Source: Desulfuromonadaceae bacterium (GTDB lineage Bacteria; Desulfobacterota; Desulfuromonadia; Desulfuromonadales; JAAYDE01). Taken from it: a stretch of DNA of 34,623 bases. The stretch's first letter is position 1, and each line of letters begins with the position of its first letter. Below, piece by piece: positions 13,902 through 34,623 of this stretch. The position numbers and the translations under genes are program-made. The DNA lies in contig JAAZDE010000060.1 of NCBI GenBank assembly GCA_012512925.1, positions 1-34,623 of the forward strand, given 5' to 3'. Under the pieces are notes generated by a model. The model was not told the origin of the DNA. It did not search any database and saw only the letters and a program-made list of their open reading frames with translations.

Positions 13902-13904
13902 GAT

Positions 13905-17491: not shown

Positions 17492-17512
17492 CTTCCCGCG
17501 CCAAAATCCCGT

Positions 17513-17968: not shown

Positions 17969-18444
17969 CGTTTTGGTTCCTCCTGACGAAGCGAGCCCAG
18001 GGACGAGGATGGGACAAAATCGAGGCCCGCTTCCCGAAGCAGCTGCAGGGAGAGGTCGTCGGGGTAGCCGTCGCGATAGACGATGCGCTCGATGCCGGCG
18101 TTGATGAGCATCTTGGCGCAGATGACGCAGGGTGCGGTGGTGCAGTAGAGAGTGGCGCCGTCGATGTTGACCCCATGCTTGGCGGCCTGGATGATGGCGT
18201 TCTGTTCGGCGTGAAGCCCCCGGCACAACTCATGGCGTTCGCCGGAGGGAATCCGCAATTCCTCCCGCAGGCAGCCGATCTCGAGACAATGGCTGATTCC
18301 CGAGGGAGCGCCGTTGTAGCCGGTGGCCAGCAGGTGTTTGTCCTTGACCAGAACGGCCCCCACCTGGCGACGCAGGCACGTGGACCGTTTCGCCACCAGT
18401 TGGGCGATCTCCATGAAATACTCTGCCCAGGAGGGGCGTTTCAT
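17965..18444 (-). CDS. comEB: dCMP deaminase / ComEB family cytidine deaminase-like protein
   Basis: This enzyme deaminates dCMP to dUMP, feeding thymidylate synthesis. The 159-residue protein has the zinc deaminase motifs HAE (78-80, Glu80 being the proton shuttle) and PCVICA (Cys106 and Cys109). A further region, [12 protein letters not shown] through HELCRG, is typical of dCMP deaminases and probably holds a second zinc. The start is ATG 18444, which overlaps the glyA stop as ATGA; the frame is open to 18483 but those residues are encoded within glyA. Location next to glyA (5,10-methylene-THF) and nrdR fits a dTMP/dNTP role. The comEB name is by homology only and implies no competence function. 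Confidence 0.93.
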
Positions 18445-19694
18445 GGCTGCAAGTGGTGGGCGTAAAGGGGATAGCGCCGGCACAGTTCCCTGACCTCCTG
18501 ACGAATGACCTGCAGTTTCGCGTCATCGTCGATACTTTTCAGCGCCCGGTCGATCCACGAGGCCACCTGGGCCATATCCTTTTCCTGAAGCCCCCGGGTG
18601 GTGGTGGCCGGCGTGCCGATGCGAAAACCGCTGGTGACAAAGGGGGAACGGGTGTCGAAGGGAACGGCGTTCTTGTTGACCGTGATTCCGGCTTTTTCCA
18701 GGGTGGCTTCGGCCGCTTTGCCGGTGATCTCGGTACCGGAGAGATCGACCAGCATCAGATGGTTGTCGGTTCCTCCCGAGACCAGATTGAAACCGTGGGC
18801 CAAAAGACCATCGGCCAGGGCCTTGGCGTTTTTGACCACCTGCCGGGCATAATCCCTGAACGAAGGCTCGAGGGCTTCCCTGAAGGCCACCGCCTTGGCG
18901 GCGATGACATGCATCAGCGGTCCCCCCTGGATGCCGGGGAAGATGTTGCTGTTGATCGCCTTGGCGAATTCCTCGCGCATCAGGATCATGCCGCCGCGGG
19001 GGCCGCGCAGGGTCTTGTGGGTGGTGGTGGTGACAAACTCGGAATGGGGAACCGGGTTGGGATGCTCCCCGGCGGCGACCAGGCCGGCGATATGGGCCAT
19101 ATCGACCATCACCTTCGCCCCCACGTCATCGGCGATCTCCCGGAAAGCCTTGAAATCGATGGTCCGCGGATAGGCGCTGGCCCCCACCACGATCAGTTTG
19201 GGACGATGTTCCTCAGCCAGCCGGCGCACCTCGTCGTAATCGATATAACCGGTCTCCCTTTTGACGCCGTAAGGAACGATTTTGAACAGCTTGCCGGAGA
19301 AGTTGACCGGGGAGCCATGGGTGAGATGGCCGCCGTGGGCGAGATTCATGCCGAGGATGGTGTCGCCGGGGGCGCAGGCCGCGAAATAGACCGCCATGTT
19401 GGCCTGGGAACCGGAATGGGGCTGGACGTTGGCGGCGTCGGCGCCGAACAGCCGTCTGGCCCGCTCGATGGCCAACCGCTCCGCCACGTCGACGAATTCG
19501 CAGCCGCCGTAATAGCGCTTGCCGGGGTATCCTTCGGCGTACTTGTTGGTCATGATCGAACCCTGGGCCTCAAGAACGCAGTCACTGACGAAGTTTTCCG
19601 AGGCGATGAATTCCAGGCTGTATTCCTGCCGTTCGGTTTCCCGCCGCAGAGCAGCGGCAATCTCCGGATCAAAACGGTTCAGCATCTCAAACAT
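18441..19694 (-). CDS. glyA: Serine hydroxymethyltransferase
   Basis: GlyA converts serine and tetrahydrofolate to glycine and 5,10-methylene-THF, the main one-carbon source for dTMP, purines and methionine. The 417-residue PLP enzyme is of standard length. Visible motifs are [15 protein letters not shown] (26-40), [27 protein letters not shown], and the PLP-lysine site [15 protein letters not shown] with Lys227. The ATG at 19694 has GGGAGG about 11 bases upstream. An intrinsic terminator lies between rpiB and glyA, so glyA may begin a separate transcript or depend on read-through. It overlaps comEB by 4 bases. Confidence 0.97.
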
Positions 19695-19737
19695 ATCTGC
19701 AACAACCTCCCCTTCCGATAAACATTCGAAAAAGTAA

Positions 19738-19758
19738 AAAGCAGGCCGAGCCTGCTTT
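19738..19758 (-). terminator. Intrinsic terminator after rpiB
   Basis: Minus-strand AAAGCAGG-CTCGG-CCTGCTTT forms an 8-bp stem with a 5-base loop, followed by TTACTTTTTC. It lies 22 bases beyond the rpiB stop and 44 bases before glyA, dividing the long minus-strand run. Confidence 0.75.
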
Positions 19759-19779
19759 ATCCTGTCCCCTTGCCGACCC

Positions 19780-20229
19780 TCACCCTTGGCCGAGTTCCTT
19801 TTCGATCAGGGCGATCTTGTCAAGTCGCTTCTGATGGCGCCCCTCTTCAAAAACGGCATCGAACCAGATGCCAACCAACCGGCAGCCCATCTCAGGAGAA
19901 AGTACCCGGCCGCCAAGGACGATGATATTGGCGTCGTTGTGCTCCTTGGCCATGCGCGCCGTGAATTCGTCATGAACCAGGGCGGCGCGGACACCGGGAA
20001 ATTTGTTGGCCACGATCGACATGCCGATGCCGGTGCCGCAGATCAGGATCCCCTGGGTCATCTCCCCTCGGGACACCGTCCCGGCCACCAGGGCGCCGAA
20101 ATCGGGGTAGTCGACCGAATCGTCGTTGAAGACACCGAAATCGTGAAAGGCGATTCCCCGCCCATCAAGGCATCGTTTGACCGCTTCTTTCAATTCGATG
20201 CCGCCGTGGTCCGAAGCAATGGCGATCAT
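19780..20229 (-). CDS. rpiB: Ribose 5-phosphate isomerase B
   Basis: RpiB interconverts ribose 5-phosphate and ribulose 5-phosphate, feeding the pentose phosphate pathway and also the RibB substrate used downstream. The 149-residue protein has the RpiB/LacAB fold signature: [17 protein letters not shown] with Asp8 and His9, [20 protein letters not shown] with catalytic Cys64, and [15 protein letters not shown] with His97. The start is ATG 20229, 4 bases past the fabF stop; the open frame to 20262 adds residues unlike the family. Only a weak ribosome site (AAGGTG) is present, suggesting coupling to fabF. LacA/LacB relatives are excluded by context. Confidence 0.95.
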
Positions 20230-20233
20230 GCCG

Positions 20234-21466
20234 TCACACCTTGCGGAAAAGAAGGGTGGCATTGGTCCCGCCGAAGCCGAAGGAATTGGACATGGCGATC
20301 TTTATTTCCGCCTGACGGGGTTCATTGGGAACGAAGTCCAGATCGCATTCGGGGTCGGGTTCCTCATAATTGATGGTCGGAGGAGCGACCCCCCGGTCCA
20401 TGGCCAGCACCGTGTAAACCGCTTCGATGGCGCCCGCCGCGCCGAGGGCGTGACCGGTGTTCCCTTTGGTGGAACTGACCATCACCTGGCGGGCATGATC
20501 TCCGAAAACCGTTTTGATGGCCATGGTTTCGTTGAGATCGTTGAGCGGGGTGGAGGTGCCATGGGCATTGATGTAATCCACCTCTTCGGGGTTGACTCCG
20601 GCTCCCTTGAGGGCCATGCGGATGCACCTCGAGGCCCCTTCGCCGCCGGGGGACGGATGGGTCAGGTGGTAGGCGTCGCCGGTGAGGCCGTAGCCACAGA
20701 TTTCGGCGTAGATCTTCGCTCCCCTCTTGCGGGCCGCTTCATACTCTTCGAGGATGACGATGCCGGCGCCTTCCGCGAGAATGAAACCGTCGCGATTCTT
20801 TTCAAAGGGACGGCTCGCTCTTTTCGGATCGTCATTGCGGGTGGAAAGGGCCTTCATCACGCTGAAACCGCCGATGCCCAGAATCGTCACCGTCGACTCG
20901 GTACCCCCGGCGATCATGGCGTCGGCATCTCCCCGCTGAATGATCCGGTAGGCATCCCCTATGCTGTGGGTGCCGGTGGCGCAGGCGCTGCAGACCGAAA
21001 GGTTGGGACCCTTGGCGCCGCATCTCATGGAAATCTGCCCCGGCGCCAGATTGATGATCAGCATGGGAATGAAAAAGGGAGAAATCTTCTTATACCCTCC
21101 TTCCAGGCAGGCCGAATGGCATCTCTCCAGGGTGGGGAGTCCTCCCAGCCCGGCCCCGACCAGAACCCCGACCCGGTCGGCGTTGGATTCGTTGATTTCA
21201 AAGCCGGAATCCTTGAGAGCCATGTCGGCGGCGGCAACGGCATACTGGATGAACAGGTCGTTCTTGCGAAGATCCTTCTTTTCCATGTACTGTTCGCCGT
21301 CGAAATCCTTGACCTCCCCGGCAATCTGGGAGGGGAGACTCGAGGCGTCGAAGCGGGTGACGAGGTCGATACCTGACTCCCCGGACATCAAGGCATTCCA
21401 GTTCTTTTCCACCCCGGTTCCCGTGGCGGAGATCACCCCCACTCCAGTGACGACCACTCGGCGCAT
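20234..21466 (-). CDS. fabF: 3-oxoacyl-[acyl-carrier-protein] synthase II
   Basis: FabF condenses malonyl-ACP with acyl-ACP to elongate fatty acids. The 410-residue thiolase-fold enzyme carries the Cys-His-His triad: Cys162 in SVCSACATGTHSIG, His302 in INAHGTSTPLND, and His339 in GNTGHALGAAGAIEA. It starts MRRVVVTGVGVISATGTG, typical of KAS II, and ends NSFGFGGTNATLLF. Length is normal. The ribosome site is weak and the 127-base gap after acpP holds two hairpins, so its expression relative to acpP may be tuned there. Context (fabH, fabD, fabG, acpP) confirms the role. Confidence 0.97.
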   Translation of the reverse strand: MRRVVVTGVGVISATGTGVEKNWNALMSGESGIDLVTRFDASSLPSQIAGEVKDFDGEQYMEKKDLRKNDLFIQYAVAAADMALKDSGFEINESNADRVGVLVGAGLGGLPTLERCHSACLEGGYKKISPFFIPMLIINLAPGQISMRCGAKGPNLSVCSACATGTHSIGDAYRIIQRGDADAMIAGGTESTVTILGIGGFSVMKALSTRNDDPKRASRPFEKNRDGFILAEGAGIVILEEYEAARKRGAKIYAEICGYGLTGDAYHLTHPSPGGEGASRCIRMALKGAGVNPEEVDYINAHGTSTPLNDLNETMAIKTVFGDHARQVMVSSTKGNTGHALGAAGAIEAVYTVLAMDRGVAPPTINYEEPDPECDLDFVPNEPRQAEIKIAMSNSFGFGGTNATLLFRKV

Positions 21467-21517
21467 GCTGTCTCGTCTCTCTTTCTGGTTGTTTCAACGG
21501 CAAAAAAGGAACGTCGA

Positions 21518-21549
21518 GCCCCAGATCTCCCACAAAAGGAGTCTGGGGC
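21518..21549 (-). terminator. Long hairpin before fabF (possible attenuator)
   Basis: A 12-bp stem (21518-21530 pairing with 21538-21549, one bulged T at 21526) encloses a 7-base loop. On the minus strand a TTCCTTTTTT tract follows about 6 bases later. The U-tract offset makes it a doubtful full terminator; partial termination or RNA processing between acpP and fabF is plausible. Confidence 0.5.
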
Positions 21550-21565
21550 CCAGGCTTCATATAAA

Positions 21566-21582
21566 GGGAGGCTTGTCCTCCC
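21566..21582 (-). terminator. Short GC hairpin after acpP
   Basis: GGGAGG (6 bp) pairs with CCTCCC around a 5-base loop, 11 bases beyond the acpP stop, followed on the minus strand by TTTATAT. It is a weak terminator or 3'-end stabilising structure for an abundant acpP message. Confidence 0.45.
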
Positions 21583-21593
21583 CTCTGTTCTTC

Positions 21594-21827
21594 TCAGGTA
21601 TGCTCGTTGATGTAGTCGATAGCGTCCTGAACGGTCCTGACCTTTTCGGCGTCCTCGTCGGAAATTTCGATGTCGAACTCTTCCTCAAGGGCCATGACCA
21701 GTTCCACCGTATCGAGGGAATCGGCGCCGAGATCATCCATGAAGGATGCTTCCTCGGTCACCTGATCTTCATCCACGCCGAGCTGTTCCGCAACAAGCTG
21801 TTTCACTCTTTCGGCAATCGAAGCCAT
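21594..21827 (-). CDS. acpP: Acyl carrier protein
   Basis: ACP carries growing acyl chains on a 4'-phosphopantetheine arm for fatty-acid, phospholipid and lipid A synthesis. The 77-residue acidic protein has the modification motif [15 protein letters not shown] with Ser37, and family flanks [18 protein letters not shown] and [15 protein letters not shown]. The start is ATG 21827 because GGAGG lies 8 bases upstream, one of the stronger ribosome sites in this run; the frame is open to 21875 but that part is not ACP-like. It lies between fabG and fabF, the usual position. High expression is expected from the family and fits the strong ribosome site. Confidence 0.97.
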
Positions 21828-21871
21828 TTCAAAAACCTCCTTTTTTTGTAAAAATCGTGATTTGTTGGCAA

Positions 21872-22609
21872 TCACATATACATTCCGCCGTTCACCGCCA
21901 GAACCTGGCCGGTAATGTAACCTGATTTTTCCCCTGCCAGGAAGATCACGGCATGGGTCACATCCTCCACCTGCCCCAGGGTTCCCAGGGGAATCTGGGC
22001 GGCGAGCTCCTCACGGGTCTTTTCCGGGAGAGCCCGGGTCATGTCGGTCTCAATGAAACCGGGGGCCACGGCATTGACCGTCACCTGGCGTCGCGCCAGT
22101 TCCCGGGCATTGGAATAGGTCAACCCGATCAAACCCGCCTTGCTGGCGCAATAGTTGGCCTGGCCGACATTCCCCATCTGCCCCACCACGGAAGAGATGT
22201 TGATAATCCTCCCGTAACGTTTTTTCGACATGATGCGGGCCGCTTCCTGCGTACAGAGGAAAGCGCTCTTGAGATTGACGGCCAGAACGGCGTCCCAGTC
22301 CTGCTCCTTCATCCGGATCAGCAATGCGTCGCGGGTGATGCCGGCATTATTGACAAGAATATCGAGCGAACCGAATTTCTCAATCACCGCATGAAAAACA
22401 GTCTTGACCTGAGCGGAATCGGCCACGTCGGCCTGGAGGGCCAAAGCCTCTCCCCCCTGTTCCACAATGGCTGCAGCGCAGTTCTCGGCGCAGTTGCGAT
22501 CGATATCGACGATCACCACCTTGGCACCCTGACGGGCCAATTCTCCGGCGATTTCGGCCCCGATCCCCTTGCCGGCCCCGGTAACCAATGCAACTTTGCC
22601 CTTTGGCAT
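21872..22609 (-). CDS. fabG: 3-oxoacyl-[acyl-carrier-protein] reductase
   Basis: FabG reduces 3-oxoacyl-ACP with NADPH in the elongation cycle. The 245-residue short-chain dehydrogenase has the cofactor site [11 protein letters not shown] (10-20), NNAG (87-90), and the catalytic Ser140 ([10 protein letters not shown]), Tyr153 and Lys157 (YCASK). The end, [16 protein letters not shown], is typical. The ATG at 22609 has GGGAGGG a few bases upstream. SDR paralogues are common, but position between fabD and acpP supports the housekeeping FabG. Confidence 0.96.
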
Positions 22610-22658
22610 GATTCCCTCCCTGCTCCGCGCCTCCGTTGCCCAAAAAGAGGAGGCGCCG

Positions 22659-23579
22659 TTAGGCCGTCAGCGCTTTCAGCCCTTGTATGGTGTCCACCGC
22701 CTGGGCCGCCACGCCTCTATCGATTCTTTTGACCAGCCCGGCCAGAACCTTGCCCGGGCCAATCTCCACGAACCGCTCTGCCCCGACGGAGATCATCTTG
22801 CGCACCGAGGCATCCCACAACACCGGCCGGCTGACCTGTTCGATCAACAAATCCCGAACCCGTTCCGGATCCTGATTGACCTCCGCTTCCACGTTGCTGA
22901 CCAGCGGCACATGAAAAGGCCGGCAGGGGATTTCCTCGAGCACCGGCCGCAGCCGTTCCCCCGCGGACCTCATGAGCGCCGAATGGAAGGGCGCGCTGAC
23001 CGGCAACATCACCGCTTTTTTGCAACCGCGGGCCCGGCACAATTCCAGCGCCCGCTGAAGGGCTCCGCTCTGGCCGGCGATGACGATCTGACCAGGGGAA
23101 TTGTAGTTGGCCGGCGCCACGACCTCGCCCTGGGAAGCCTCCCGACAGATTTCCTCGAGGACAACACCGTCCATCCCCAGCACCGCGGCCATCCCCCCCG
23201 CGCCCACGGGAACAGCCTCCTGCATGAAGATCCCCCGGCTGCGAACGGCGCGCAAAGCATCGTCAAAGCGGAACACTCCGGCCGACACCAGGGCCGAATA
23301 CTCGCCGAGAGAATGACCGGCCACCAGGAACGGCCGCAGATCGGTCTCTTCCTCCACAACCCTCAATATGGCAATGGTTGCAGCCAGAATAGCCGGTTGG
23401 GTAAACTCGGTCAATAGAAGCCGTTCCTCGGGCCCCTCGAAACAGAGGCGGGAAAGGGAAAAACCCAAGGCATCGTCCGCTTCCTCGAAGATTCTGCGGG
23501 CGGCCGGGAAGCTTTCCGCGAACTCCCGCCCCATCCCGATCTCTTGAGAACCCTGGCCTGGAAAAATAAAAGCAATCAT
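22659..23579 (-). CDS. fabD: Malonyl-CoA:ACP transacylase
   Basis: FabD loads malonyl groups from CoA onto ACP. The 306-residue protein has FIFPGQGSQEIGMG near its start, the catalytic Ser90 in AGHSLGEYSAL, the substrate-carboxylate Arg115 in SRGIFMQEAVP, and His199 in PVSAPFHSALM. All are at the family's usual spacing. It starts 32 bases after the fabH stop and ends 49 bases before fabG. The ribosome site is weak. Confidence 0.96.
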   Translation of the reverse strand: MIAFIFPGQGSQEIGMGREFAESFPAARRIFEEADDALGFSLSRLCFEGPEERLLLTEFTQPAILAATIAILRVVEEETDLRPFLVAGHSLGEYSALVSAGVFRFDDALRAVRSRGIFMQEAVPVGAGGMAAVLGMDGVVLEEICREASQGEVVAPANYNSPGQIVIAGQSGALQRALELCRARGCKKAVMLPVSAPFHSALMRSAGERLRPVLEEIPCRPFHVPLVSNVEAEVNQDPERVRDLLIEQVSRPVLWDASVRKMISVGAERFVEIGPGKVLAGLVKRIDRGVAAQAVDTIQGLKALTA

Positions 23580-23611
23580 CGGACGCTCTTCAAACCTTTC
23601 GATGAATCCGG

Positions 23612-24592
23612 CTACCAGCGGATCAGCGCGGCTCCCCAGGTGAATCCGCCGCCGAAGGCGTTGAGCAGAATCAGATCCTGCGGCGCCAGCAACCCCCGCC
23701 GGTTGGCTTCGTCCAGGGCGATGGGGATGGAGGCCGAAGAGGTGTTGGCAACCCGGTCCACATTGACGAAAATCTTATCCGAAGGGAGGTCGAGGCGCTT
23801 GCCGATAGCATCGAGAATACGCTTGTTGGCCTGATGGGGGAATATCAGCTTCAGGTCGTCCTTGGTCAGGCCGTTGGCCGCCAAAGCTTCGAGGGCGACA
23901 TCCGACAGGGCTTTGACCGCCACCTTGAAGACCTCGTTGCCCTGCATCTTGACAAAACGCCGCCCCTGGTCCTCCACCTCCGGCAAAAAGGAAGGACTGG
24001 CGCTGCCGCTCAACTGGTAAAGAAGCTCCCAATAATTCCCGTCGGTATGCAGATGGGTGGACAGGATTCCCCCCTCCCCCTCCTCGCTGGACAGCACCAC
24101 CGCCCCGGCTCCGTCTCCGAACAGCACGCAGGTATTGCGGTCTTTCCAGTTGACGGTTCGGGTCATGATCTCGGAGCCAATCACCAGGGAACGCTTGACA
24201 GTCCCGATTCTGTGGTAGTTGACGGCGTTGGCAAGGGCGAAAATGAAACCGCTGCAGGCGGCACTGACATCAAAGGCGACAGCCCGGCGGGCGCCCAGAT
24301 TCTTCTGCACCATACATGCGGCGGAGGGAAAAGTGAATTCGCCGGTGATGGTTCCGACGATGATCAGATCGATTTCCTCCGCTGCCACACCGGCCATTTC
24401 GAGAGCCTTGCGAGCGGCTTCCGTGGCCAGGTCCGAGGCATTTTGACATTCCGCGGCGATATGGCGCTCACGGATTCCGGTTCGGGAAACGATCCATTCA
24501 TCGGAGGTGTCGAGAAACTTCTCCAGATCGAAATTGGTAGCCACTTTCTCGGGTATATAGGATCCGGTTCCGGCAATTTTCGCCCTGATCAC
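23612..24592 (-). CDS. fabH: 3-oxoacyl-[acyl-carrier-protein] synthase III
   Basis: FabH condenses acetyl-CoA (or branched starters) with malonyl-ACP to start fatty-acid synthesis. The 326-residue thiolase-fold protein has catalytic Cys113 in FDVSAACSGFIFAL, the His of IFPHQANKRI, and the Asn of DRVANTSSASIP. The start is GTG at 24592 (product begins MIRAKIAGTGSYIPEKV), chosen because AGGAGG is just upstream and this is the family N terminus. The frame runs open to 24718, but that stretch overlaps plsX and is not FabH-like. plsX ends 13 bases upstream. Starter-unit preference cannot be read from sequence alone. Confidence 0.96.
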   Translation of the reverse strand: MIRAKIAGTGSYIPEKVATNFDLEKFLDTSDEWIVSRTGIRERHIAAECQNASDLATEAARKALEMAGVAAEEIDLIIVGTITGEFTFPSAACMVQKNLGARRAVAFDVSAACSGFIFALANAVNYHRIGTVKRSLVIGSEIMTRTVNWKDRNTCVLFGDGAGAVVLSSEEGEGGILSTHLHTDGNYWELLYQLSGSASPSFLPEVEDQGRRFVKMQGNEVFKVAVKALSDVALEALAANGLTKDDLKLIFPHQANKRILDAIGKRLDLPSDKIFVNVDRVANTSSASIPIALDEANRRGLLAPQDLILLNAFGGGFTWGAALIRW

Positions 24593-24605
24593 GCCACCTC
24601 CTGGT

Positions 24606-25667
24606 TTATATACTGTCCTTGGATTTGGTGAATCTGCTGAAATCGAACTTCCATTCCCTCTTCGGCGGCAATTTCTCAATCTGTACCAGCAGCTTTTCAT
24701 TGACCTCTTTGGCCACATACTCCCGCGCCGTGAATATGGCGTTCATGATCGCTTTGGGAGACGAGCCGCCATGGCAGATCATGCCGATGCCGTCGATCCC
24801 CAGCAAGGGAGCGCCGCCAACCTCGGAATAGTCAACCTTTTTCTTGAAGGCGGCGAAGGCCGGCCGGGCCAGCAGATAACCGATCTTGCCCATCAGCCGG
24901 CTGCCGATCTCCTGCTGCAGCATGGAACTGACAAACTCAGCCAACCCTTCGGAAACCTTCAGCACCACATTGCCGACGAAACCATCGCAAACGACGACAT
25001 CGACAACGCCGGCGAAGATGTCCCGCCCCTCGACATAGCCCCGGTAGTCGAGCATCGATCCCTTGAGCAGGTGATGGGCCTCGCGGGTCAGATCGGTTCC
25101 TTTGGACTCTTCCGCGCCATTGGAGAGAAGCCCTACGGTAGGATGAGGTTTGCCCATCAGATAACGGGCGAAAACCTCCCCCATAAGGGCGAACTGGGCC
25201 AGATGGTGTGGTTTGCATTCGACATTGCCGCCCACATCGAGAATCAGGATCTTGCCCTTCTGACTGGGGAAGACGGTGGCGATGGCCGGACGATCGATTC
25301 CCTGTACCCGCTTGAGTATGAACATTCCGGCGGCCATGGTGGCGCCGGAATTACCGGCGCTGACGACGGCATGGGCCTGACCGCCCCTGACCAGTTCATA
25401 GGCCACCCGGATCGACGAGTCTTTCTTGCGCCGCACGGCATCGGAAGGATGGTCATGCATCCCCACCACTTCGGAGGTGTGGTGAATGGATATATCGAGC
25501 CCGTTGACGTCGTGTTTGCCCAACTCCTCGTTGAGCTTGGTCGAGTCGCCGACCAGGATGATGGGAACCCCCCATTTCCTGGCCGCCGCCACCGCTCCTT
25601 CCACTTCCACGGCCGGAGCGTTGTCCGAACCCATGCCGTCAACGGCAACGACGATTCGATCTTCCAA
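24606..25667 (-). CDS. plsX: Phosphate acyltransferase PlsX
   Basis: PlsX makes acyl-phosphate from acyl-ACP, the donor used by PlsY for phosphatidic acid synthesis; it is a peripheral membrane enzyme. The 353-residue product matches the family throughout: [20 protein letters not shown] at the start, [51 protein letters not shown] and [11 protein letters not shown]. The start is TTG at 25667 with AAGGA 7 bases upstream; no ATG fits the family N terminus. It lies 12 bases after rpmF, the well-known rpmF-plsX pairing linking translation and lipid synthesis. Confidence 0.96.
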
Positions 25668-25679
25668 GGAAATGTCCTT

Positions 25680-25862
25680 TTATTCCGATTTGTTTTCCAG
25701 GACTTCTTTCCCCTTGTAGCTGCCGCAGGCGGGACAGACCCGGTGGGGCAATTTGGGCTCTTTGCACTGGGGGCATACGGAAATGCCGGCGGTCGGCAAC
25801 CCGTCATGGGAACGTCTCATATCGCGTCTCGACTTGGATGTTTTCTTCTTGGGAACTGCCAT
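25680..25862 (-). CDS. rpmF: 50S ribosomal protein L32
   Basis: L32 is a small zinc-binding protein of the large ribosomal subunit. The 60-residue product begins [20 protein letters not shown], the family signature, and has two CxxC pairs (CPQC and CPAC, about residues 30-33 and 43-46), so it is the zinc-dependent form. ATG 25862 has AAGGAG about 11 bases upstream. A longer frame is open upstream to 26114, but it crosses yceD in another frame and is not real. Position between yceD and plsX is conserved in many bacteria. Confidence 0.97.
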
Positions 25863-25966
25863 TGGTATGTCATCTCCTTGCGATTCGGCCGCTGCGGTCA
25901 AGCCGCCTTGTGGCCGTGGGGTTTTTCCGAACAGACTCCAGCGGCGGAGCATCCGCTGCTGGTTCA

Positions 25967-26554
25967 TCAACTTTCCTTGTTTTCCTGGTCCTCGATCCTC
26001 AAACCGGCCAGAGCAGCCCACTTGGGGTTGACGGCCGTCTCCGGGCAGCCGCAGGATTCCCGGTTGCGATCGGCGCCGCAGACGGGGCAAAGTCCCAGGC
26101 ACTCTTCCCGGCACAGGGGACGAACCGGCAACGCCATGAGCAACTGATCCTGAACGGCCTCACGGAGATCCAGCTCGTCACCGGCAAAGGGGATCAGGCT
26201 GACATCTTCCTCCGCAAGCTCCCGTTCTTCGGCCCCGGACTGATCCTCCTTGTCGACGGAAAAGCGGCTGAAGGCCAGTGTAAACTCGACCTTCAGGGGA
26301 AAAAGGAATTTTTCCAGACAACGACCGCATATCAATTCCGCCTGCGTCGCCGCCGTTCCTTCTCCGCAATAGATATCATCCGCCCGCCAGAGATCGATAT
26401 GAATCTCCACGGGGGAAACAAAAACCCCTTCCCCTCTCTCTTCCATCTCCGCCAGAACCGGAAAGGCGACGACAGATTCCTGAAAGGAAAACGACTTTTT
26501 CCCTTCACCCAGAATCTGAATGGGGATGAGCAGATCAGAAGGGGATTTTCGCAT
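25967..26554 (-). CDS. yceD: DUF177 / YceD family protein
   Basis: The YceD (DUF177) family is linked genetically and by position to rpmF and, in some bacteria and plastids, to 23S rRNA accumulation; its exact biochemistry is not settled. The 195-residue acidic product has paired cysteines: [10 protein letters not shown] (about 75-84) and, near the C terminus, [19 protein letters not shown] followed by CGC, the family's conserved metal-site-like region. ATG 26554 has no ribosome site, and a near-consensus promoter ends only about 10 bases upstream, so the mRNA may be leaderless. It heads the fab run, 104 bases before rpmF. Confidence 0.87.
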
Positions 26555-26564
26555 AAAAGTGATT

Positions 26565-26592
26565 AGTATAGAAAGGCGTCTTCCCTTGTCAA
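26565..26592 (-). promoter_or_regulatory. Near-consensus sigma-70 promoter for yceD-rpmF-fab run
   Basis: Minus-strand TTGACA (26592-26587, perfect) and TATACT (26570-26565, 5 of 6) with a 16-base spacer. A start point 6-8 bases beyond the -10 falls at about 26557-26559, next to the yceD ATG at 26554. It is the best promoter match I see in the window. Confidence 0.7.
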
Positions 26593-26729
26593 GAAGAAAA
26601 GGCCCCCCCTGTGGGGTTACCCTTTGAATGGATTTTCGTTTATATTATTCCCGTTGAATTTGCAAGGAATAAATGACCCCCGAGCCGCGGGCAAAGTCTG
26701 CGGACGGACTTCCCCCATACGAGGAAAAG

Positions 26730-27524
26730 ATGACCCCTGACAACACGCCTCAGGCAATCAACCGCCTCATCCGCATCGTCGCTGCCCTTCGATCTCCCCG
26801 GGGCTGTCCCTGGGATCGGGACCAGACCCCCGCCTCCCTGAGACGCTTTCTTCTGGAAGAGGCCTACGAAGTCCTGGAAGCTTTGGACCAGGAAGATATC
26901 ACCAACATCCGCCTGGAATTGGGGGACCTTCTCCTCCAGATCGTCCTCCTCTCGCGGATGTTCGAGGAGAGCGGCCTGTTCGGCCTGAGCGACGTGGCGA
27001 ACGGCATCGCCGACAAACTGGTGCTCCGTCACCCCCACGTCTTCCAGGGAACCGATATCGGCGACAGGGACGATCTGGACCGTCAGTGGGACAGGATCAA
27101 GGCCGCTGAAAAAGAGGGCGGTAAGAGGAAAGGCGTCCTCGCCGGCATTCCCCGCCGGCTGCCGGCCCTGCTGCGGGCCCAGAAAGTGACCGAAAGAGCC
27201 GCCAGAGTCGGCTTCGACTGGCCGGACCGGCACGGAGTGGAGGAGAAAATCGCCGAAGAGGTGGCGGAATTTCTCGAGGCCTGCGGCAACCGCTCACCGG
27301 TCGGCATCGAAAACGAATTCGGCGATCTTCTCTTTTCCCTGGTCAATCTGGCGCGTTTCCTGGATATCTCGGCGGAAGACGCGCTGCGCAAAACGATCGG
27401 CCGTTTTCAGCGGCGCTTCGAATTCATCGAGGAAAATCTTCGGGAAAAGGGCAAAACCATCGAGGAATCATCCCTCGATGAGATGAATCTGTTTTGGGAA
27501 CGGGCCAAGCAATCCATCCCCTGA
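26730..27524 (+). CDS. mazG: Nucleoside triphosphate pyrophosphohydrolase MazG
   Basis: MazG hydrolyses NTPs and dNTPs to monophosphates and pyrophosphate, cleaning nucleotide pools and, in E. coli, lowering ppGpp. The 264-residue product has two MazG domains. The first has GCPWDRDQTPASLRRF and the metal-binding EEAYEVLEALDQED and ELGDLLLQIVLL; the second has VGFDWPDRHG, EEVAEFLEA and NEFGDLLFSLVNLARFL. E. coli MazG is 263 residues. I prefer ATG 26730 (GAGG 5 bases upstream) for length and family N terminus; ATG 26673, with AAGGA 4 bases upstream, would add 19 residues. It is divergent from yceD and converges on ogt. Confidence 0.94.
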   Translation: MTPDNTPQAINRLIRIVAALRSPRGCPWDRDQTPASLRRFLLEEAYEVLEALDQEDITNIRLELGDLLLQIVLLSRMFEESGLFGLSDVANGIADKLVLRHPHVFQGTDIGDRDDLDRQWDRIKAAEKEGGKRKGVLAGIPRRLPALLRAQKVTERAARVGFDWPDRHGVEEKIAEEVAEFLEACGNRSPVGIENEFGDLLFSLVNLARFLDISAEDALRKTIGRFQRRFEFIEENLREKGKTIEESSLDEMNLFWERAKQSIP

Positions 27525-27837
27525 CTCGCGGGCAAAAAACCTTTGCATCCCGGGACCTTCCCGAGTTTTCCACAATTTCTGTTGAAAACCTGTTTAAAAG
27601 GTTGTGAAAAGAGAAGCGAAAGGCAACTGTTACAAGCCGCTTCCACAATCTGCCCAAAAATTAGGCTTTTGAATATTCCATAGATTTTTCAGAAAGTTAG
27701 CTTTTACATCCAGCCCCTTCAAAAGATTTTCAGCGGCCGGCCGAAAGGAATCGGAATCGCCCCCCCGGCCAGCCTTGCGAATCCTGACAAAATCCTCGTT
27801 CTTGGGGATAAAGGACAAAACAGGACAGGATTTCCCC
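27525..27837. other. Convergent gene-free region with DnaA-box-like sites
   Basis: No coding frame of family character is visible in these 313 bases between mazG (plus) and ogt (minus). A weak terminator-like hairpin for mazG is at 27551-27563 (CGGGA/TCCCG, then AGTTTT). Bases 27566-27574 read TTTTCCACA, one mismatch from the DnaA box TTATCCACA, and 27580-27588 on the other strand read TTTTCAACA (two mismatches). A further CTTCCACAA is at 27640-27648. An AT-rich stretch follows (about 27651-27732). GGCCGGCCG (27735-27743) can pair with CGGCCAGCC (27766-27774) over a large loop. Confidence 0.5.
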
Positions 27838-28368
27838 CTAGCCGAACAGGGCCCCTTCCAACTCCAAAAGTTTCCTCTTGGTAGAGATCCCTTCGCCCCC
27901 GGAAAAACCGTGCAGGGACCCATCGGCGGCCACCACCCGATGACAGGGGACGGCAAGAAGGAAGGGGTTGGCAGCCACGGCGCGCCCCACGGCGCGAGCG
28001 GCCCGGGGCCGTCCCGTTCGCGCCGCCAGTCCGCCATAAGAGATGGTGGCGCCATAAGGGACCAGCATCAGTTGGCCATAGACCTCTTGCTGAAAGGGGG
28101 ACAGGAAACTGAAATCCAGTTCCAGTTGAAAGGCTTGCCGCCTCCCTTCCAGATACTCCAGGATCTGCCCTCTGGCCGCCACAAGCCGGGGGGATTCCCG
28201 CAGTCGTGCCGCCGGGCGGACACTGAGCAGTTCCTTTTCCAGAGACGCCCGGCTTTTCCCCAGCAGGATTCCCTGAAGCGCTGACTGGCCGTCGATGACC
28301 GTTACCCATCCCAAAGAGGTGGGGAAAAAAAGATAATCCACCGGTTGAGCGACAAGGGATTGTTTCAT
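27838..28368 (-). CDS. ogt: Methylated-DNA--protein-cysteine methyltransferase (MGMT/Ogt type)
   Basis: This suicide repair protein takes alkyl groups from O6-alkylguanine or O4-alkylthymine onto its own cysteine. The 176-residue product has an N-terminal ribonuclease-like fold (about 1-88) and the C-terminal DNA-binding and acceptor domain (about 90-176): PFQQEVYGQLMLVPYGATIS, SYGGLAARTG, ARAVGRAVAANPF, and the acceptor PCHRVV with Cys142, then GFSGGEGISTKRKLLELEG. It has no Ada metal-binding domain, so it is the constitutive, Ogt-like type. Its ATG overlaps the murJ stop as ATGA. DNA repair has no obvious tie to murJ; the pairing may be only transcriptional. Confidence 0.93.
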   Translation of the reverse strand: MKQSLVAQPVDYLFFPTSLGWVTVIDGQSALQGILLGKSRASLEKELLSVRPAARLRESPRLVAARGQILEYLEGRRQAFQLELDFSFLSPFQQEVYGQLMLVPYGATISYGGLAARTGRPRAARAVGRAVAANPFLLAVPCHRVVAADGSLHGFSGGEGISTKRKLLELEGALFG

Positions 28369-29942
28369 GGCCGTACCTTCCTGGCTATTTTGTTTTTTAT
28401 CAGGTCAAGGATCTCGCCGGCCTGTGGAACCCGGCACAGAAAGCAGCCGACGGCAAAGAGCGCGATGCCGGAAAAAACGGCGGCGCCGAGAACCAGAAGT
28501 TTAAAACCACCACGACCGGTCTGTTCCCACGGCCCCAGACCAAGGATCCAAAAGACGGCGGCGGCCATGACCAGAACGAGGGGAAGCAGCCACCTGAGAT
28601 CCCTGACTATGCTCCCGAAACCGAGGGGACCGATCCTCCCCTTCAGCGCCCGCCATAACAGCAGGCTGTTGACAGCGGCCGAAAGGGTGCCGGCGGCGGC
28701 CAGGCCGACATGCCCCCAGAGGAGCATGAAGGGGAGACCGCAGCCAACGTTCACGATCAGGGTCCAGAAAGAGATCCGCACCGGCGTCCGGGTGTCCTTG
28801 AGAGCGTAGAAAACCGGCGCCAGAATCCGGCTGAGGCCGACGAAAAGAAGACCCGGCGCATAGGCGACCAGGGCCTGGGCGGTACGGCGCACCTCCTCAT
28901 AGCCGAAGGTTTCGTTCATGAAAAAGAGACTGAAGACGGGGACGGAACAGACCATCAGGCCGGCGGCGGCGGGCAGAGTCACGAAACCGATCAGCACCAT
29001 GGAAAAACGCAACGATTCCTTCAGGTCGCCGGCATGGTCGAGGGCGGCGTGACGGCTCATGGCCGGCAGCACCGCCTGGGCCAGGGAGACGATGAAGATC
29101 CCTTGGGGAAACTCGAAAAGGCGCTGGGCATAATAGAGATAGGAAACACTTCCTTCGGGGAGGAAGGAAGCCATCAGGCGGCTGATGGTCAGGTTGATCT
29201 GGTAGATGGCGATGCCGGCGATGCCGGGCAGCATCAGCAGGGCCGCCCTGCGGACATCGGCATCCAGAAAACGCCGCGCCGGCCGTGGCAGGAAACCGGC
29301 CCGGAAAAGGAGTGGAAACTGGATCAGCAACTGAATCGCCCCGCCCATCAAAACTCCCGCCGCCAGGGCCAGAATGGGAGTTTCGAGATGGGGAGAGAGA
29401 AACCAGGCCGACCCGATCATGCACAGATTGAGAAACAGGGGGGCCAGAGAAGGGAGGAAAAACCGGCCGAGGACATTCAGAATACCGGTGACCAGGGCGA
29501 GCAGACTGACAAAGAAAAGATAAGGGAACATGATCCGGTTGAGCAGATCAGTCAGTTCCAGTTTGCCGGCGACCGTGGCGAAGCCGCCCCCGAAAAGCCT
29601 CACCAGCAGTGGTGAGGCCAGAACACCCGCCAGCGTGACGGCGGTCATTACCAGGACCAGAAAGGTCCAGCAGCGGTCGGCGAAACGTTTGGCCTCCTCC
29701 TGTCCGCGCAGATGATAGATTTCGGAGAAGGTCGGAACGAAGGCCGCGGTCAAAGAGCCTTCGGCAAAAAAACGCCGGAAAAGGTTGGGGATGGTAAAGG
29801 CGACAAAGAAAGCGTCGGAAGCGAAACCGGCCCCGAACAGGCGGGCGATGACCATGTCCCGGGCCAACCCGGTGACCCGGCTCAGGGAGGTGGCCATCCC
29901 CATGATTCCGGTAGCCCGGAAGATCTTTCCCTTTTCCGACAT
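28365..29942 (-). CDS. murJ: Lipid II flippase MurJ
   Basis: MurJ flips lipid II, the peptidoglycan precursor, across the inner membrane. The 525-residue protein is hydrophobic throughout, with about 14 transmembrane helices expected from the MOP family. Family patterns are MGMATSLSRVTGLARDMVIARLFGAG, split over the first helix and loop, then SDAFFVAFTIPNLFRRFFAEGS and AFVPTFSEIY. The start is ATG 29942 with GAGG 9 bases upstream; an earlier TTG at 29957 is less likely. It is divergent from rpsT and has ogt overlapping its stop. No confident promoter hexamers were found in the AT-rich stretch upstream. Confidence 0.95.
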   Translation of the reverse strand: MSEKGKIFRATGIMGMATSLSRVTGLARDMVIARLFGAGFASDAFFVAFTIPNLFRRFFAEGSLTAAFVPTFSEIYHLRGQEEAKRFADRCWTFLVLVMTAVTLAGVLASPLLVRLFGGGFATVAGKLELTDLLNRIMFPYLFFVSLLALVTGILNVLGRFFLPSLAPLFLNLCMIGSAWFLSPHLETPILALAAGVLMGGAIQLLIQFPLLFRAGFLPRPARRFLDADVRRAALLMLPGIAGIAIYQINLTISRLMASFLPEGSVSYLYYAQRLFEFPQGIFIVSLAQAVLPAMSRHAALDHAGDLKESLRFSMVLIGFVTLPAAAGLMVCSVPVFSLFFMNETFGYEEVRRTAQALVAYAPGLLFVGLSRILAPVFYALKDTRTPVRISFWTLIVNVGCGLPFMLLWGHVGLAAAGTLSAAVNSLLLWRALKGRIGPLGFGSIVRDLRWLLPLVLVMAAAVFWILGLGPWEQTGRGGFKLLVLGAAVFSGIALFAVGCFLCRVPQAGEILDLIKNKIARKVRP

Positions 29943-30049
29943 GTCTTGAGACCTCAACGCCTGATAGTTAGGAAATTTAATCCCCTTAAAGAAAAAGATA
30001 ACATTCCGGAAAATAAACGATTTTTATTTTTACAAAGCATTTTTTTCTG

Positions 30050-30079
30050 TTGACGGAAAACCACCCCGAATGTTATAAG
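30050..30079 (+). promoter_or_regulatory. Predicted sigma-70 promoter for rpsT
   Basis: TTGACG (30050-30055) and TATAAG (30074-30079) are 18 bases apart, each matching 5 of 6 consensus positions, with an AT-rich stretch just upstream that could act as an UP element. The predicted leader before the rpsT start is about 95-100 bases. Confidence 0.65.
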
Positions 30080-30098
30080 AGGCCGTTCGAAAGACCGT

Positions 30099-30112
30099 CG
30101 CTTTATAAAGCG
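30099..30112. repeat. 14-bp perfect palindrome in the rpsT leader
   Basis: CGCTTTATAAAGCG lies about 20 bases downstream of the rpsT -10. As DNA it is a symmetric site of operator type; as RNA it could make only a short 5-bp stem with a 4-base loop. Its role is unknown. Confidence 0.5.
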
Positions 30113-30183
30113 TCCAGAGCTGCAACGACCCACTGGAGCTGAATCGATCTTTCGCCAAACCAAATACCCTCAGGAGGAGAAAC

Positions 30184-30447
30184 TTGGCCAACCATAAGTC
30201 CGCAATCAAAAGGAATAAACAGAACAGCGTGCGCAACGAGCGCAACGCCCATATCCGCACCACTCTCCGCACCTTCGTCAAGAAGGTCCGCCTGGCCGTT
30301 TCCGGAAACGACGCTGCGGAAGCCGCGGCGGCCCTTGAGAAAACCATCCCCCTCATCGACAAGGCGGCCTCCAAAGGTATTCTTCACAAAGCCACCGCCA
30401 GCCGGAAAATCTCTCGGCTGTCCAAGCTGGTCAACACGATCCGCTGA
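30184..30447 (+). CDS. rpsT: 30S ribosomal protein S20
   Basis: S20 is a primary 16S rRNA-binding protein of the small subunit. The 87-residue, very basic, helical product starts [19 protein letters not shown] and has the family features [33 protein letters not shown]. The start codon is TTG at 30184, preceded at 6 bases by a full AGGAGG. E. coli rpsT also starts with UUG, which is needed for its autogenous translational control, so similar control is plausible here. It is a single-gene unit with its own promoter upstream and a strong terminator downstream within holA. Confidence 0.97.
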
Positions 30448-30453
30448 TCCGTT

Positions 30454-31494
30454 TCAGACCTTTCGAGACCTTCCAGGCCCCTTCTCGGGGCCTTTGCTTT
30501 TTCCCACGGCGACGATCCTTGCCGCCAGAGATTCGAGCAGGGCAGCGCCGTCGACGGAACTGCTTTTGAGGGCCCGGTCGGTCTCCAGAAACCATTCAAA
30601 GATCCTCTGGTATTCCCGCGAGCCGAAGCAGGCCGCCTGCCCCCTCATCCGGTCCAGAAAATAGGGCGGAAATTCGGCCTGACGGGCGATGGCCGACCCT
30701 TCCGCCTTCTGCCGCCCCATCGTTTCACAGATCCACAGCTGGCGGAAATGCCTGATCAGCATGGAAAGCACGAAAAGGGGCGCCGCCCCTTCTTCGAGCA
30801 GCTGACGCAGCAGGGTCAGGGCCGCAGCCCCATCACAACCCCCCACCGCGTTGATAACATCAAAAACGGAAGCGGCGCTGCCGTCCAGGGTCGCCTCGAC
30901 GATATCCTCCACCGTGGCGGACTTCTTCTCGCCCAGAAAAGAAAAAAGCTTATCGAGTTCCACCTGCCAGTTGACGCTTTCCGTTCCGCAGCGCTGGCAG
31001 AAAAGGGAAAGGGCATCGCCACTGAAGCGCACCCCGCGCTCCGCCCCCTTTTCCTTGACCAGCGCCGCCAGCTGGAATTCCCTGGGCCGGGGAAATTCCA
31101 CCACCAGGGCACTCTTGCGAAGGGCCTGGAACAGCCGCTGCCGTTTGTCGGGGGTGCCCGCGGTCAGCACCACCACGGTTTCCGCAACCGGCTGCTGGAG
31201 GTAATCGATCAGCAGCGGATGATGGGAGGTGGACATCTCCAGGACATTCTTCACCACCACCACCCTCCTTGGAGCGAATGCCGGCAAGGTCTGGGCGGCG
31301 TCGAGGATTCCCTCAATATCGTTGTCGCGGCCCGAAAATTGGTGGAGATTGAAATCCCGTTGCTGCGGTTCGAGAAGGGAGTCGATGGTCAGACGCAGGG
31401 ATTCCTCCAGAGAGGAGGCATCCTCTCCGTAGAAAAAAAGAAGGGCGGGAATTTCCCGCCGCTGCAGTTTTTTCTTGAGTTCTGCGGAAGTCAT
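30454..31494 (-). CDS. holA: DNA polymerase III, delta subunit
   Basis: HolA is the clamp-loader subunit that opens the beta sliding clamp. The 346-residue protein has the family N-terminal domain (LFFYGEDASSLEESLRLTI; TLPAFAPRRVVVVKNV), the middle segment with VEFPRPREFQLAALVKEKG and LCQRCGTESVNWQVELDKL-like pattern (here LFCQRCG), and a C-terminal collar domain with FDVINAVGG and LIRHFRQLW. The last codons, KGPEKGPGR, are written by the rpsT terminator hairpin, so coding and terminator are superimposed. The gene follows lptE by 21 bases, completing leuS-lptE-holA. Confidence 0.94.
   Translation of the reverse strand: MTSAELKKKLQRREIPALLFFYGEDASSLEESLRLTIDSLLEPQQRDFNLHQFSGRDNDIEGILDAAQTLPAFAPRRVVVVKNVLEMSTSHHPLLIDYLQQPVAETVVVLTAGTPDKRQRLFQALRKSALVVEFPRPREFQLAALVKEKGAERGVRFSGDALSLFCQRCGTESVNWQVELDKLFSFLGEKKSATVEDIVEATLDGSAASVFDVINAVGGCDGAAALTLLRQLLEEGAAPLFVLSMLIRHFRQLWICETMGRQKAEGSAIARQAEFPPYFLDRMRGQAACFGSREYQRIFEWFLETDRALKSSSVDGAALLESLAARIVAVGKSKGPEKGPGRSRKV
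30475..30502 (+). terminator. Intrinsic terminator of rpsT, inside holA coding sequence
   Basis: AGGCCCC (30475-30481) pairs with GGGGCCT (30487-30493) around TTCTC, followed by TTGCTTTTT. It begins 28 bases after the rpsT stop and overlaps the last codons of holA on the other strand. Confidence 0.85.
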
Positions 31495-31515
31495 CCGGCT
31501 GTGAATATCCGATGG

Positions 31516-32040
31516 TCAGAAATTGGCGGTGATACGGTTGTACAGCTCCTCCGCCAACCGCTCGCTGATATCCTTCTGGGCCAGCGCCTCGCCGCTCTCC
31601 TCCAGCCCACGGTCGAAGGAAGCCTGGTACTCATCACTCCAGGAAGCGCTCCCCTTCCACAACACCCGGTTGTCTCCCACGGAACGGAGGACAGCCTGGC
31701 AGGTGATGGAGGATCGGTATTCGGTGATGTCGTCCTCCCGGCCGGAGTAGGCCGAGGCGCTGCTCATGTAGGAGGAGACGGTGCCGCTGAGAATCGCTTC
31801 GGCGGCCTTGGGGTCTTCCACCACCTCGACATTCAATGCCTTGGAAAAGCGCCGGATGACCGCATTGGAAACGAGGTTTTCGAGAAACGGCTCGGAGGTG
31901 CGGTTTTCGAAAAAAGCGACATAGATGACCCGCACCCCCTCGGGCAGACGATCCCCCTGCCCGCCGGGGAGGTGGTAGCCGCAGCCGAAAAGCCCGGCAA
32001 GAAGGAACAGAACGAGAATTTTTGGGGATAGCTTCATCAT
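31516..32040 (-). CDS. lptE: LPS-assembly lipoprotein LptE
   Basis: LptE is the outer-membrane lipoprotein that plugs and helps assemble the LptD barrel for LPS export. The 174-residue precursor has a lipoprotein signal peptide with lipobox LFGC (Cys20) followed directly by GYHLPG, the classical LptE start. Next are VIYVAFFENRTSEPFLENLV, VVEDPKAAEAILSGTVSSY and a C-terminal ISERLAEELYNRI. The ATG at 32040 abuts the leuS stop (TGA-ATG-ATG); either of two tandem ATGs may be used, and there is no strong ribosome site, so coupling to leuS is likely. LptE sequences diverge widely, but lipobox, size and leuS-lptE-holA order agree. Confidence 0.9.
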   Translation of the reverse strand: MMKLSPKILVLFLLAGLFGCGYHLPGGQGDRLPEGVRVIYVAFFENRTSEPFLENLVSNAVIRRFSKALNVEVVEDPKAAEAILSGTVSSYMSSASAYSGREDDITEYRSSITCQAVLRSVGDNRVLWKGSASWSDEYQASFDRGLEESGEALAQKDISERLAEELYNRITANF

Positions 32041-34605
32041 TCAGCCGACCACGATGTTGACCAACCGGTTGGGAATCACCACCACTTTCCGAACCTCCTT
32101 GCCCTCCACGAACCGGACCACGTTGGCATCGGCCAGGGCGATCTCGCGGACCAGGCTGTCGGCGGCGTCGGTGGGCACCTGAATCTTGCCGCGCACCTTG
32201 CCGTTGACCTGAATCACCACCAGCTTTTGCTCCTCGACCAGCGCCGCCTCGTCCCAGACGGGCCATCCCGCTTTCTCCACTCCTTCCTCATGACCCAAAA
32301 CCGACCACAGTTCCTCGGCGAAATGGGGCACGAAGGGATTGAGCAACCGGATCACCGTCTCCAGGGCCAGGCCCAGGGTGCGGGGATAGTTCTCCTTGCC
32401 CGGAGCGGCGCTGACCGCGTTGACCAGTTCCATCACGGCGGCGATGGCCGTATTGAACTGGAACCGGTTCTCGATATCCTCGGTCACCTTCTTGATGGCC
32501 TGATGGATGGAGCGCTTCAGGGAGCGGACCACCGCCTGGGTCTGAGCATCCTGCCGGTCGGCGGCGCCGTCTTTCAGAAGGGCGAAATTCTCGTAAACGA
32601 TCCGCCACACCCGGTTGAGAAAGCGGTAGGCTCCTTCGACGCCCCGTTCGCTCCACTCCAGATCCTTTTCCGGAGGGGCGGCGAAAAGGCAGAAGAGGCG
32701 GGCCGTGTCGGCGCCGTACTGGCCGATCAGCACATCAGGGTCGACCACGTTCTTCTTCGACTTGCTCATCTTTTCCTTGCGGCCGATGAGGGCCTCGGCC
32801 CCGCACTTGCGGCATTTCCCCTCTACCACCTCCTCGGGGAACAGCCAGCCGTGCCGGGGGCACTTCTGGGTCTCCTTGCAGACCATGCCCTGGGTGAGCA
32901 GGTTCTGGAAGGGCTCGCCGACCCGGACCAGATCGAGGTCTCTCAAGGCCTTGGTGTAGAAGCGGGAATACAGAAGGTGCATAACGGCGTGTTCGACACC
33001 GCCGATGTACTGATCGACCGGCATCCAGTAATCGACCGCCGCTTTGTCGATGGGGCCTTCCTCGTAGCGGGGACAGGCGTAGCGGAGGAAATACCAGGAA
33101 CTTTCGACAAAGGTATCGAAAGTGTCGGTTTCACGCCGTGCCGGGGCGCCGCAGCGGGGGCAACTGGTGTGGACGAAAGAAGGACAGGCGGCCAGGGGGC
33201 TCCCCCCTTCGGGACGGAATTCGACATCCTTGGGCAGGATCACCGGCAGATCCTCTTCGGGCACCGGCACCATGCCGCAGGCGTCGCAATAGATGATGGG
33301 AATCGGCGTCCCCCAGTAACGCTGCCGGGAAACCCCCCAGTCGCGCAGCCGGAAATTGACCTTGCGCTGTCCGATCCGCCGTTGCTCCAGATGATCGGCG
33401 ATCCTTTCCTTGGCCGTTTCGTTGTCGAGGCCGTTGAATTCCCCCGAGTTGACCATGGTTCCCGGGTCGGTGTAGGCCCCGGTCATGGTCTCCGCAGAAA
33501 GTTCCTGACCGGGAGGCTGAATGACCACGGTCATCGGCAGGTTGTATTTGCGGGCGAATTCGAAATCCCTCTGGTCGTGGGTGGGAACCGCCATCACCGC
33601 GCCGGTGCCGTAATCCATAAGGACAAAATTGGCCAGCATCACCGGCATCTCCTGGCCGGTCAGCGGATTGAGGCAATAGGCGCCGGTGAAGACCCCTTCC
33701 TTTTCGTAATCCTCACTGGTCCTTCTGATCTTGTCCTCTTTGCGGATGCGGCCGATGAAGTCTTCAACCTCGGAACGCCGTTCGGCGGTGGTCAGTTTCA
33801 GGGCCAGGGGATGTTCAGGGGCCAGGCTCATGAAGGTGGCCCCGAAAAGGGTGTCCTGGCGGGTGGTGAAGACGCGGATGCGAATCTCGGAGTCGGCCAC
33901 CGGAAAATCGATCTCACAGCCGATGGAACGCCCGATCCAGTTGCGCTGCATGATCAGCACCGGCTCGGGCCAACCGCTCATGCGATAGGTTTCGTCGAGC
34001 AGTTCCTGGGCATAGTCGGTTATTTTGAAAAACCACTGCTCCAGTTCCTTCGGCTCCACCTCGCTGTGACAGCGCCAGCAACACCCCTCTTCCACCTGTT
34101 CGTTGGCCAGCACGGTAAGACATTGGGGACACCAGTTGACCGCCGAGCGCTTCTTGTAGGCCAGCCCCTTTTCCAGCATTTTAAGAAAAATGAGCTGCTC
34201 CCACCGGTAATATCCGGGATCGCAGGTGGCGATTTCCCGCTCCCAATCGTAGGAAAAGCCCATCTTCATCAGCTGGGCTTTCATGTTGGCGATATTTTCG
34301 TAAGTCCAGATGGCTGGATGGATGCCCCGTTCGATGGCGGCGTTCTCGGCCGGCATGCCGAAGGCGTCCCAGCCCATGGGGTGGATGACGTTGAATCCCT
34401 GCATTCTTTTGAATCGCGCCACCACGTCGCCGATGGAGTAGTTGCGCACATGCCCCATATGAATCCGCCCCGACGGATATGGGAACATCTCCAGCAGATA
34501 GTATTTTTTTCGGGATTCGTTCTCCGTCGCCCGGAACGAGTGGTCCGCGTTCCAGAAATCCTGCCATTTCCCCTCTACGACGGCGGGGAGATAACGCTCT
34601 TCCAT
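32041..34605 (-). CDS. leuS: Leucyl-tRNA synthetase
   Basis: LeuRS charges tRNA(Leu) and edits misactivated amino acids. The 854-residue class I enzyme has the HIGH-equivalent HMGH (49-52, in [19 protein letters not shown]), a cysteine cluster of zinc-module type (CPQC near 155, CCWRC near 171), the CP1 editing domain (about 220-415) with [41 protein letters not shown], and KMSKS near 611-615. Before KMSKS a further Cys/His-rich insert (CPRHGW and CRKCG) is visible. The anticodon domain and the C-terminal leucyl-specific domain follow. The ATG at 34605 has GGAGG 6 bases upstream. Its promoter lies outside the window. Complete and of normal length. Confidence 0.98.
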
Positions 34606-34623
34606 GCCTGACCTCCAAGACGG

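Follow-up and report, generated by a model that had tools for sequence, protein, structure and literature searches.

Leaderless genes, as well as their lineage-specific gain and loss, are already known (PMC3847290, PMC3160421), and the yceD gene described here would join them on the basis of its predicted 5' end. In Campylobacter and Helicobacter, single genes alternate among relatives between an ATG adjacent to the -10 box and a leader bearing an SD, while in C. jejuni mapped 5' UTRs shorter than 10 nt and without SD are classed as leaderless, the mRNA starting directly with the start codon in 12 of 19 cases (PMC3847290). Of 953 bacterial genomes, 207 are predicted to contain TA-led leaderless genes, with a -10-like signal lying about 10-12 nt before the start (PMC3160421), and the haloarchaeal hsp70 mRNA has a 5' UTR of 4 nt from which the AUG is used efficiently (PMC4574771). 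Recognition of leaderless mRNAs probably involves 70S ribosomes, with IF2 assisting and IF3 inhibiting the process (PMC4633059). With respect to yceD itself, the gene is co-transcribed with rpmF in E. coli from a promoter upstream of yceD, and loss of YceD leads to less 23S rRNA (PMC5049393). Our literature search, in which co-mentions were judged by title, found no report of a leaderless yceD, nor (again by title) a map of transcription starts for a Geobacter-type organism.

The locus analyzed here lies in the window, namely the whole stretch of 34,623 nt under study, in which yceD is followed by three further genes on the same strand (table 1). The YceD domain is recognized with 110 bits against a gathering score of 33.2, and the gene between yceD and plsX is one that we take to be rpmF, named from its own sequence. 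The reading frame of fabH as listed, with a start at 24718, overlaps plsX; the GTG at 24592 is its probable start and 24718 an unlikely one. A previous sequence-only reading had presented yceD as the entry gene of a lipid-synthesis operon; the run also has ribosome-related genes, yceD and rpmF, at its head. Control of yceD translation by initiation-factor or ribosome state, which that reading had raised, is a conjecture.

Table 1. Position of the genes, promoter elements and start codons of the yceD region within the window
Feature	Coordinates	Strand	Basis and remarks
P1 promoter-like element	26637..26665	-	TTGCAA-N17-TAAACG, alternatively TTGCAA-N15-TATAAA
P2 -35 hexamer TTGACA	26587..26592	-	sequence; scan 11/12 together with -10
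P2 spacer, 16 nt	26571..26586	-	sequence
P2 -10 hexamer TATACT	26565..26570	-	sequence
10 nt between -10 and ATG	26555..26564	-	sequence
Predicted transcription start zone	26557..26560	-	5th-8th base after -10; inferred from general -10-to-TSS geometry
yceD ATG	26552..26554	-	next canonical start at codon 37; SD absent, +2.0 kcal/mol
CTG, codon 8	26531..26533	-	counterpart, in alignment by eye, of the initiation codon in most other families; SD absent, +0.1 kcal/mol
yceD (DUF177), 195 aa	25967..26554	-	Pfam PF02620, E 9.8e-32
rpmF (ribosomal protein L32)	25680..25862	-	good SD, -8.5 kcal/mol
plsX	24606..25667	-	Pfam PF02504; SD -5.3 kcal/mol
fabH	23612..24592	-	GTG start, SD -10.9 kcal/mol; Pfam

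The sigma-70-like promoter preceding yceD, hereafter abbreviated as P2, is the top site in a scan of the whole window (11/12, the runner-up reaching 10/12), and the distance of about 10 bases that the sequence-only reading had given between this best promoter, TTGACA-N16-TATACT, and the yceD ATG proves to be exactly 10 nt. Sigma-70-like sites are more frequent than in shuffled sequences in the part of the window from 22000 to 34623 (10 vs. 2.9 +/- 1.8), and no more frequent than in shuffles from 1 to 20000 (6 vs. 5.5) and from 19800 to 22200 (0 vs. 0.6). In the whole assembly, the pattern TTGACA-N15-18-TATANT has 11 matches as compared with 2 for a reversed control pattern; among the 11, only P2 was seen to have, no more than 15 nt away, an ATG that opens a frame of 80 aa or longer, two of the matches (L066 and L067) being too close to a contig end to judge.

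The same reading had stated that no ribosome binding site precedes the yceD ATG and that no alternative ATG, GTG or TTG with a ribosome site is evident in the first 20 codons. Both statements hold: the anti-SD duplex energy is positive at this ATG as against negative values at rpmF, plsX and the likely start of fabH (table 1), and the next in-frame candidate is codon 37 (26446). All these energies were computed with the usual anti-SD sequence, because the pattern of the 16S 3' end was not found in the assembly of the window species. A typical zero-leader promoter has 6-7 nt from the -10 box to the start. In the window as well as in the congener, the TATACT hexamer starts 16 nt ahead of the ATG and leaves 10 nt between the two, i.e. 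3-4 nt beyond what a zero leader needs under this general geometry. Because of the 10 nt that separate -10 and ATG, the 5' UTR of yceD is predicted to be about 3-6 nt long and not 0. The earlier description of a leaderless transcript, with its 5' end a few bases from the ATG, is hence sustained in its short spacing and missing SD and corrected in its UTR, which more likely measures 3-6 nt than 0; the window yceD start is predicted to be near-leaderless rather than strictly leaderless.

Of the 118 genomes searched, 114 yielded a YceD, and all 114 loci were fetched and analyzed. With P2 defined by a score of at least 10/12, its second hexamer being scored against either TATACT or TATAAT, the promoter stands ahead of yceD in 111 of the 114 loci of the order, and 102 of these 114 have it at 11/12 or better with an identical spacer of 16 nt. 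With equal bases assumed, a score of 11/12 would arise by chance only about 0.003 times per locus, so that P2 is an ancestral promoter, its reality being supported by conservation across the order. Its discriminator is generally G+C-rich (base 3 is C in 72 and base 4 is C in 74 of the 111 loci), that of the window, AATCAC, being less so; a G+C-rich discriminator and a 16-nt spacer are features typical of stringently controlled promoters. T is found at base 7 after the -10 box in 88 and at base 8 in 106 of the 111 loci, which fixes no start alone.

The position of the start codon relative to P2 follows a common arrangement in nearly all of the order. Of the 111 loci with P2, 108 have an ATG, GTG or TTG in frame at a distance of 22-50 nt downstream from the -10 box (a range set after the first loci had been viewed), the first such codon appearing at 23-43 nt. 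The best anti-SD energy of these starts has a median of -6.3 kcal/mol and is weaker than -3 in 5 of the 108, figures that are somewhat flattered by taking the best candidate start of each locus. Three loci depart from this arrangement, those of the window species (L001), its congener (L002) and L145. The last of them apparently has a longer leader, with a plausible ATG situated far downstream; a single nearby start, located 10 nt after the -10 box, is confined to the window species and its congener. In-frame starts within 16 nt of the -10 box are present in 23 of the 111 loci, and the 21 outside the window genus all keep a downstream start, so that a start codon near the -10 box is by itself no proof of use. 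In the interval 3-12 nt behind the -10 box, the two genus members are the only ones of the 111 loci with P2 to have an ATG in frame; if the frame is disregarded, 6 loci, both genus members included, have an ATG in this interval. In the comparison of this spacer among relatives, which the sequence-only reading had proposed as a check, the 10 nt, the ATG and the missing SD are all repeated in the congener, and the spacing is not shared by the rest of the family or by the other families.

The two members of the genus, whose YceD proteins are 57-58% identical, both have the ATG exactly 10 nt after TATACT, with SD energies of +2.0 (L001) and +1.9 (L002), and both have CTG as codon 8, with anti-SD energies of +0.1 and +0.3 kcal/mol, respectively. 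A segment of 74 nt, from upstream of the -35 box to codon 8, aligns without gaps between them. By eye, the start of the orthologues in most of the order lies at or near this codon 8 of the window frame and is mostly accompanied by an SD; for instance, ATG-CTG-ATC-CGA-ATC of L005 stands against CTG-CTC-ATC-CCC-ATT of the window from codon 8 onwards. Orthologues that begin downstream of a ribosome site had been named beforehand as evidence against a leaderless start, and they do prevail in the order, yet the genus has at this place a CTG and no SD. Because the ancestral position is thus altered, the start appears to have been shifted in the genus, not misread.

In the family of the window species, G002 has retained the ancestral arrangement, with TTG at 31 nt and an SD of -6.4, while G003 has the MRK extension as in the window and TTA at the ancestral start position (by eye). 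P2 was not found at the yceD locus of G003 (L003), where the best score was 8/12, or 9/12 elsewhere in a second scan; in its frame a TTG further upstream is also open. The upstream ATG is therefore present in three of the four family genomes and the near-leaderless geometry in two of the four, the 10-nt spacing being found in 2/2 genus members and absent from G003, G002 and the other families. The upstream ATG may work without P2, because G003 keeps it though P2 was not found there.

We attribute a probability of roughly 0.6 to the following reading: yceD was ancestrally leadered, and in the window genus its start moved into the promoter-proximal part of the leader, so that the gene would now be near-leaderless. 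P2, the sigma-70-type promoter common to the order, would once have given rise to a leader of about 20-30 nt with an SD. Within this leader, 10 nt after the -10 box, the window genus would have acquired an ATG in the yceD frame, while the old start codon of yceD would have become CTG and the SD would have been lost. The 5' end of transcripts from P2 would then lie 3-6 nt ahead of the ATG, and initiation would be of the leaderless type, with either a 70S ribosome or a 30S-IF2-fMet-tRNA complex engaging the 5'-proximal AUG. The product would be YceD with an N-terminal extension of seven residues (MRKSPSD). The locus would then offer a clean candidate case of a leadered gene turned near-leaderless in one genus, with ancestral and derived states side by side and the promoter fixed; if this is true, N-terminal extensions of such a kind in annotation can be real, not errors of start calling.

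A leaderless habit of the whole genome was considered and rejected on the part sampled, which shows no excess of promoter sites 3-12 nt before the ATG. In the 354 called genes sampled from the window genome (480,776 of 2,598,464 bases), promoter matches amount to 0.50 per nt at 3-12 nt, five matches including yceD, as compared with 0.88 at 20-60 nt. The corresponding values for promoter-like sites in G006 are 0.40 and 0.61 per nt (290 genes, 400,000 bases).

Upstream of P2 there is another conserved element, P1, which is possibly a second promoter or an operator. In other families its consensus, judged by eye, is TTGCAA-N17-TAATAr, and GAATrGGc often precedes the second box. Defined as TTGCAW and, 17 or 18 nt further on, TA, the element is found in 91 of the 114 loci and at 0 of 555 shifted control positions, its first box lying 55-79 nt upstream of the -35 box of P2; one of the 23 misses, L003, is counted as such only for want of a P2 anchor, its copy of P1 being visible in the sequence. 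A strict form of the pattern occurs in 18 of 58 genomes, once in each and always at yceD (18/18), with no match in the control and none in the four genomes of the window's family, whose copies differ. P1 is nearly identical in the two genus members. Its hexamers are poor sigma-70 matches in the N17 register, whereas TTGCAA-N15-TATAAA of the window fits better and has a fair -10 box. Should P1 act as a promoter, some of the yceD mRNA would be leadered. (Of G003 it may be added that P1 is kept, and that a GCGCC...GGCGC stem followed by TTTTATTTT lies between P1 and the ATG.)

The direction of P1 is only putative, and we have also considered that it might be the divergent promoter of mazG, a reading that is not favoured because L045, L047 and L048 keep P1 without a mazG-like gene. 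In these three loci, which belong to another family, a forward gene resembling a peptidase end (as a guess) replaces mazG in the ORF listing, and both P1 and P2 are kept. As to mazG of the window, on the plus strand, the frame start at 26673 (SD -5.4) lies just beside P1; the probable start is instead 26730, with an SD of -5.9 and an N terminus that by eye matches that of the congener. A terminator or small RNA between P1 and P2 was considered, and a conserved hairpin was rejected: of the first 60 loci, 47 had P1 in register and were compared in their folding with dinucleotide shuffles, leaving out 12 loci without an in-register element and L003 without P2, and gave a mean z of +0.2, with 8/47 below -1. 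By eye, several loci have an apparent hairpin plus TTTT between P1 and P2. The hairpin of the window, which is followed by TTCTTC, has an energy of -14.5 kcal/mol and a z of -2.2, as compared with +1.1 in the congener, and is not conserved.

The main yceD mRNA could alternatively come from P1 or from further upstream, with a leader of about 75-80 nt in which the ATG would be reached without SD through an open A-rich region, P2 being minor or conditional. The presence of P1 in 91 of the 114 loci, the restriction of its strict pattern to yceD, its near identity in the two genus members, the fair -10 box of its N15 register and the case of G003, which has P1 and keeps the ATG though P2 was not found, are consistent with such a transcript; nevertheless, we deem it unlikely in view of the poor hexamers in the common N17 register, the better consensus and wider distribution of P2 (111 vs. 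91 of the 114 loci) and the strong, albeit not conserved, hairpin with TTCTTC between P1 and P2 in the window. That the two promoters work in tandem in the yceD-rpmF-plsX-fabH run of the genus, with P1 giving a leadered and P2 a near-leaderless mRNA of yceD, seems very unlikely to us; were it true, the choice of promoter would set ordinary or 70S/IF2-type initiation for a factor of 23S rRNA accumulation, in a manner tied to ribosome state.

Translation might also still begin at the ancestral position, now CTG (26533-26531), behind a leader of about 24-27 nt and with the ATG being incidental. The alignment of codon 8 with the start of most orthologues, together with the presence of CTG in both genus members, would suit this view, but CTG is a weak initiator and has no SD in either species, G003 by eye has TTA in its place, and in the two genus members neither a stop codon nor an alignment gap lies between the ATG and this position. 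We thus regard initiation at the CTG as quite unlikely. That the short spacing is meaningless, being due to chance or to a contig error, is hardly credible: the window assembly is indeed fragmented, with 213 contigs, but this explanation is largely refuted by the separate MAG of the genus (JAFGOW010000214.1), which repeats every feature despite the divergence of its YceD protein.

A start codon that moved towards a fixed promoter, the reading preferred here, can be set against the systems introduced at the beginning. The E. coli yceD-rpmF locus resembles that of the window in gene order and in having a promoter upstream of yceD, whereas a leaderless start such as that predicted here is not described in the part of that report on which we draw (PMC5049393). 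In comparison with TA-led genes (PMC3160421), the -10-like signal of the window is similar and slightly further from the start, and the window case concerns a single gene, the sampled part of its genome having no enrichment. The UTR of haloarchaeal hsp70 mRNA (PMC4574771) is about as long as that predicted for yceD, but its ribosome and promoter are archaeal. The leaderless genes of Campylobacter and Helicobacter, as far as they are covered in the sections considered (PMC3847290), all have ATG starts and no SD, like window yceD; the cases in C. jejuni and H. pylori rest on dRNA-seq, while the window case is known from sequence alone. Among them, cj0153c has a -10 box and a TSS of its own in C. 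jejuni, its H. pylori orthologue lying inside an operon with an RBS (PMC3847290). In window yceD, by contrast, it would be the start codon that shifted, with the old promoter remaining in place.
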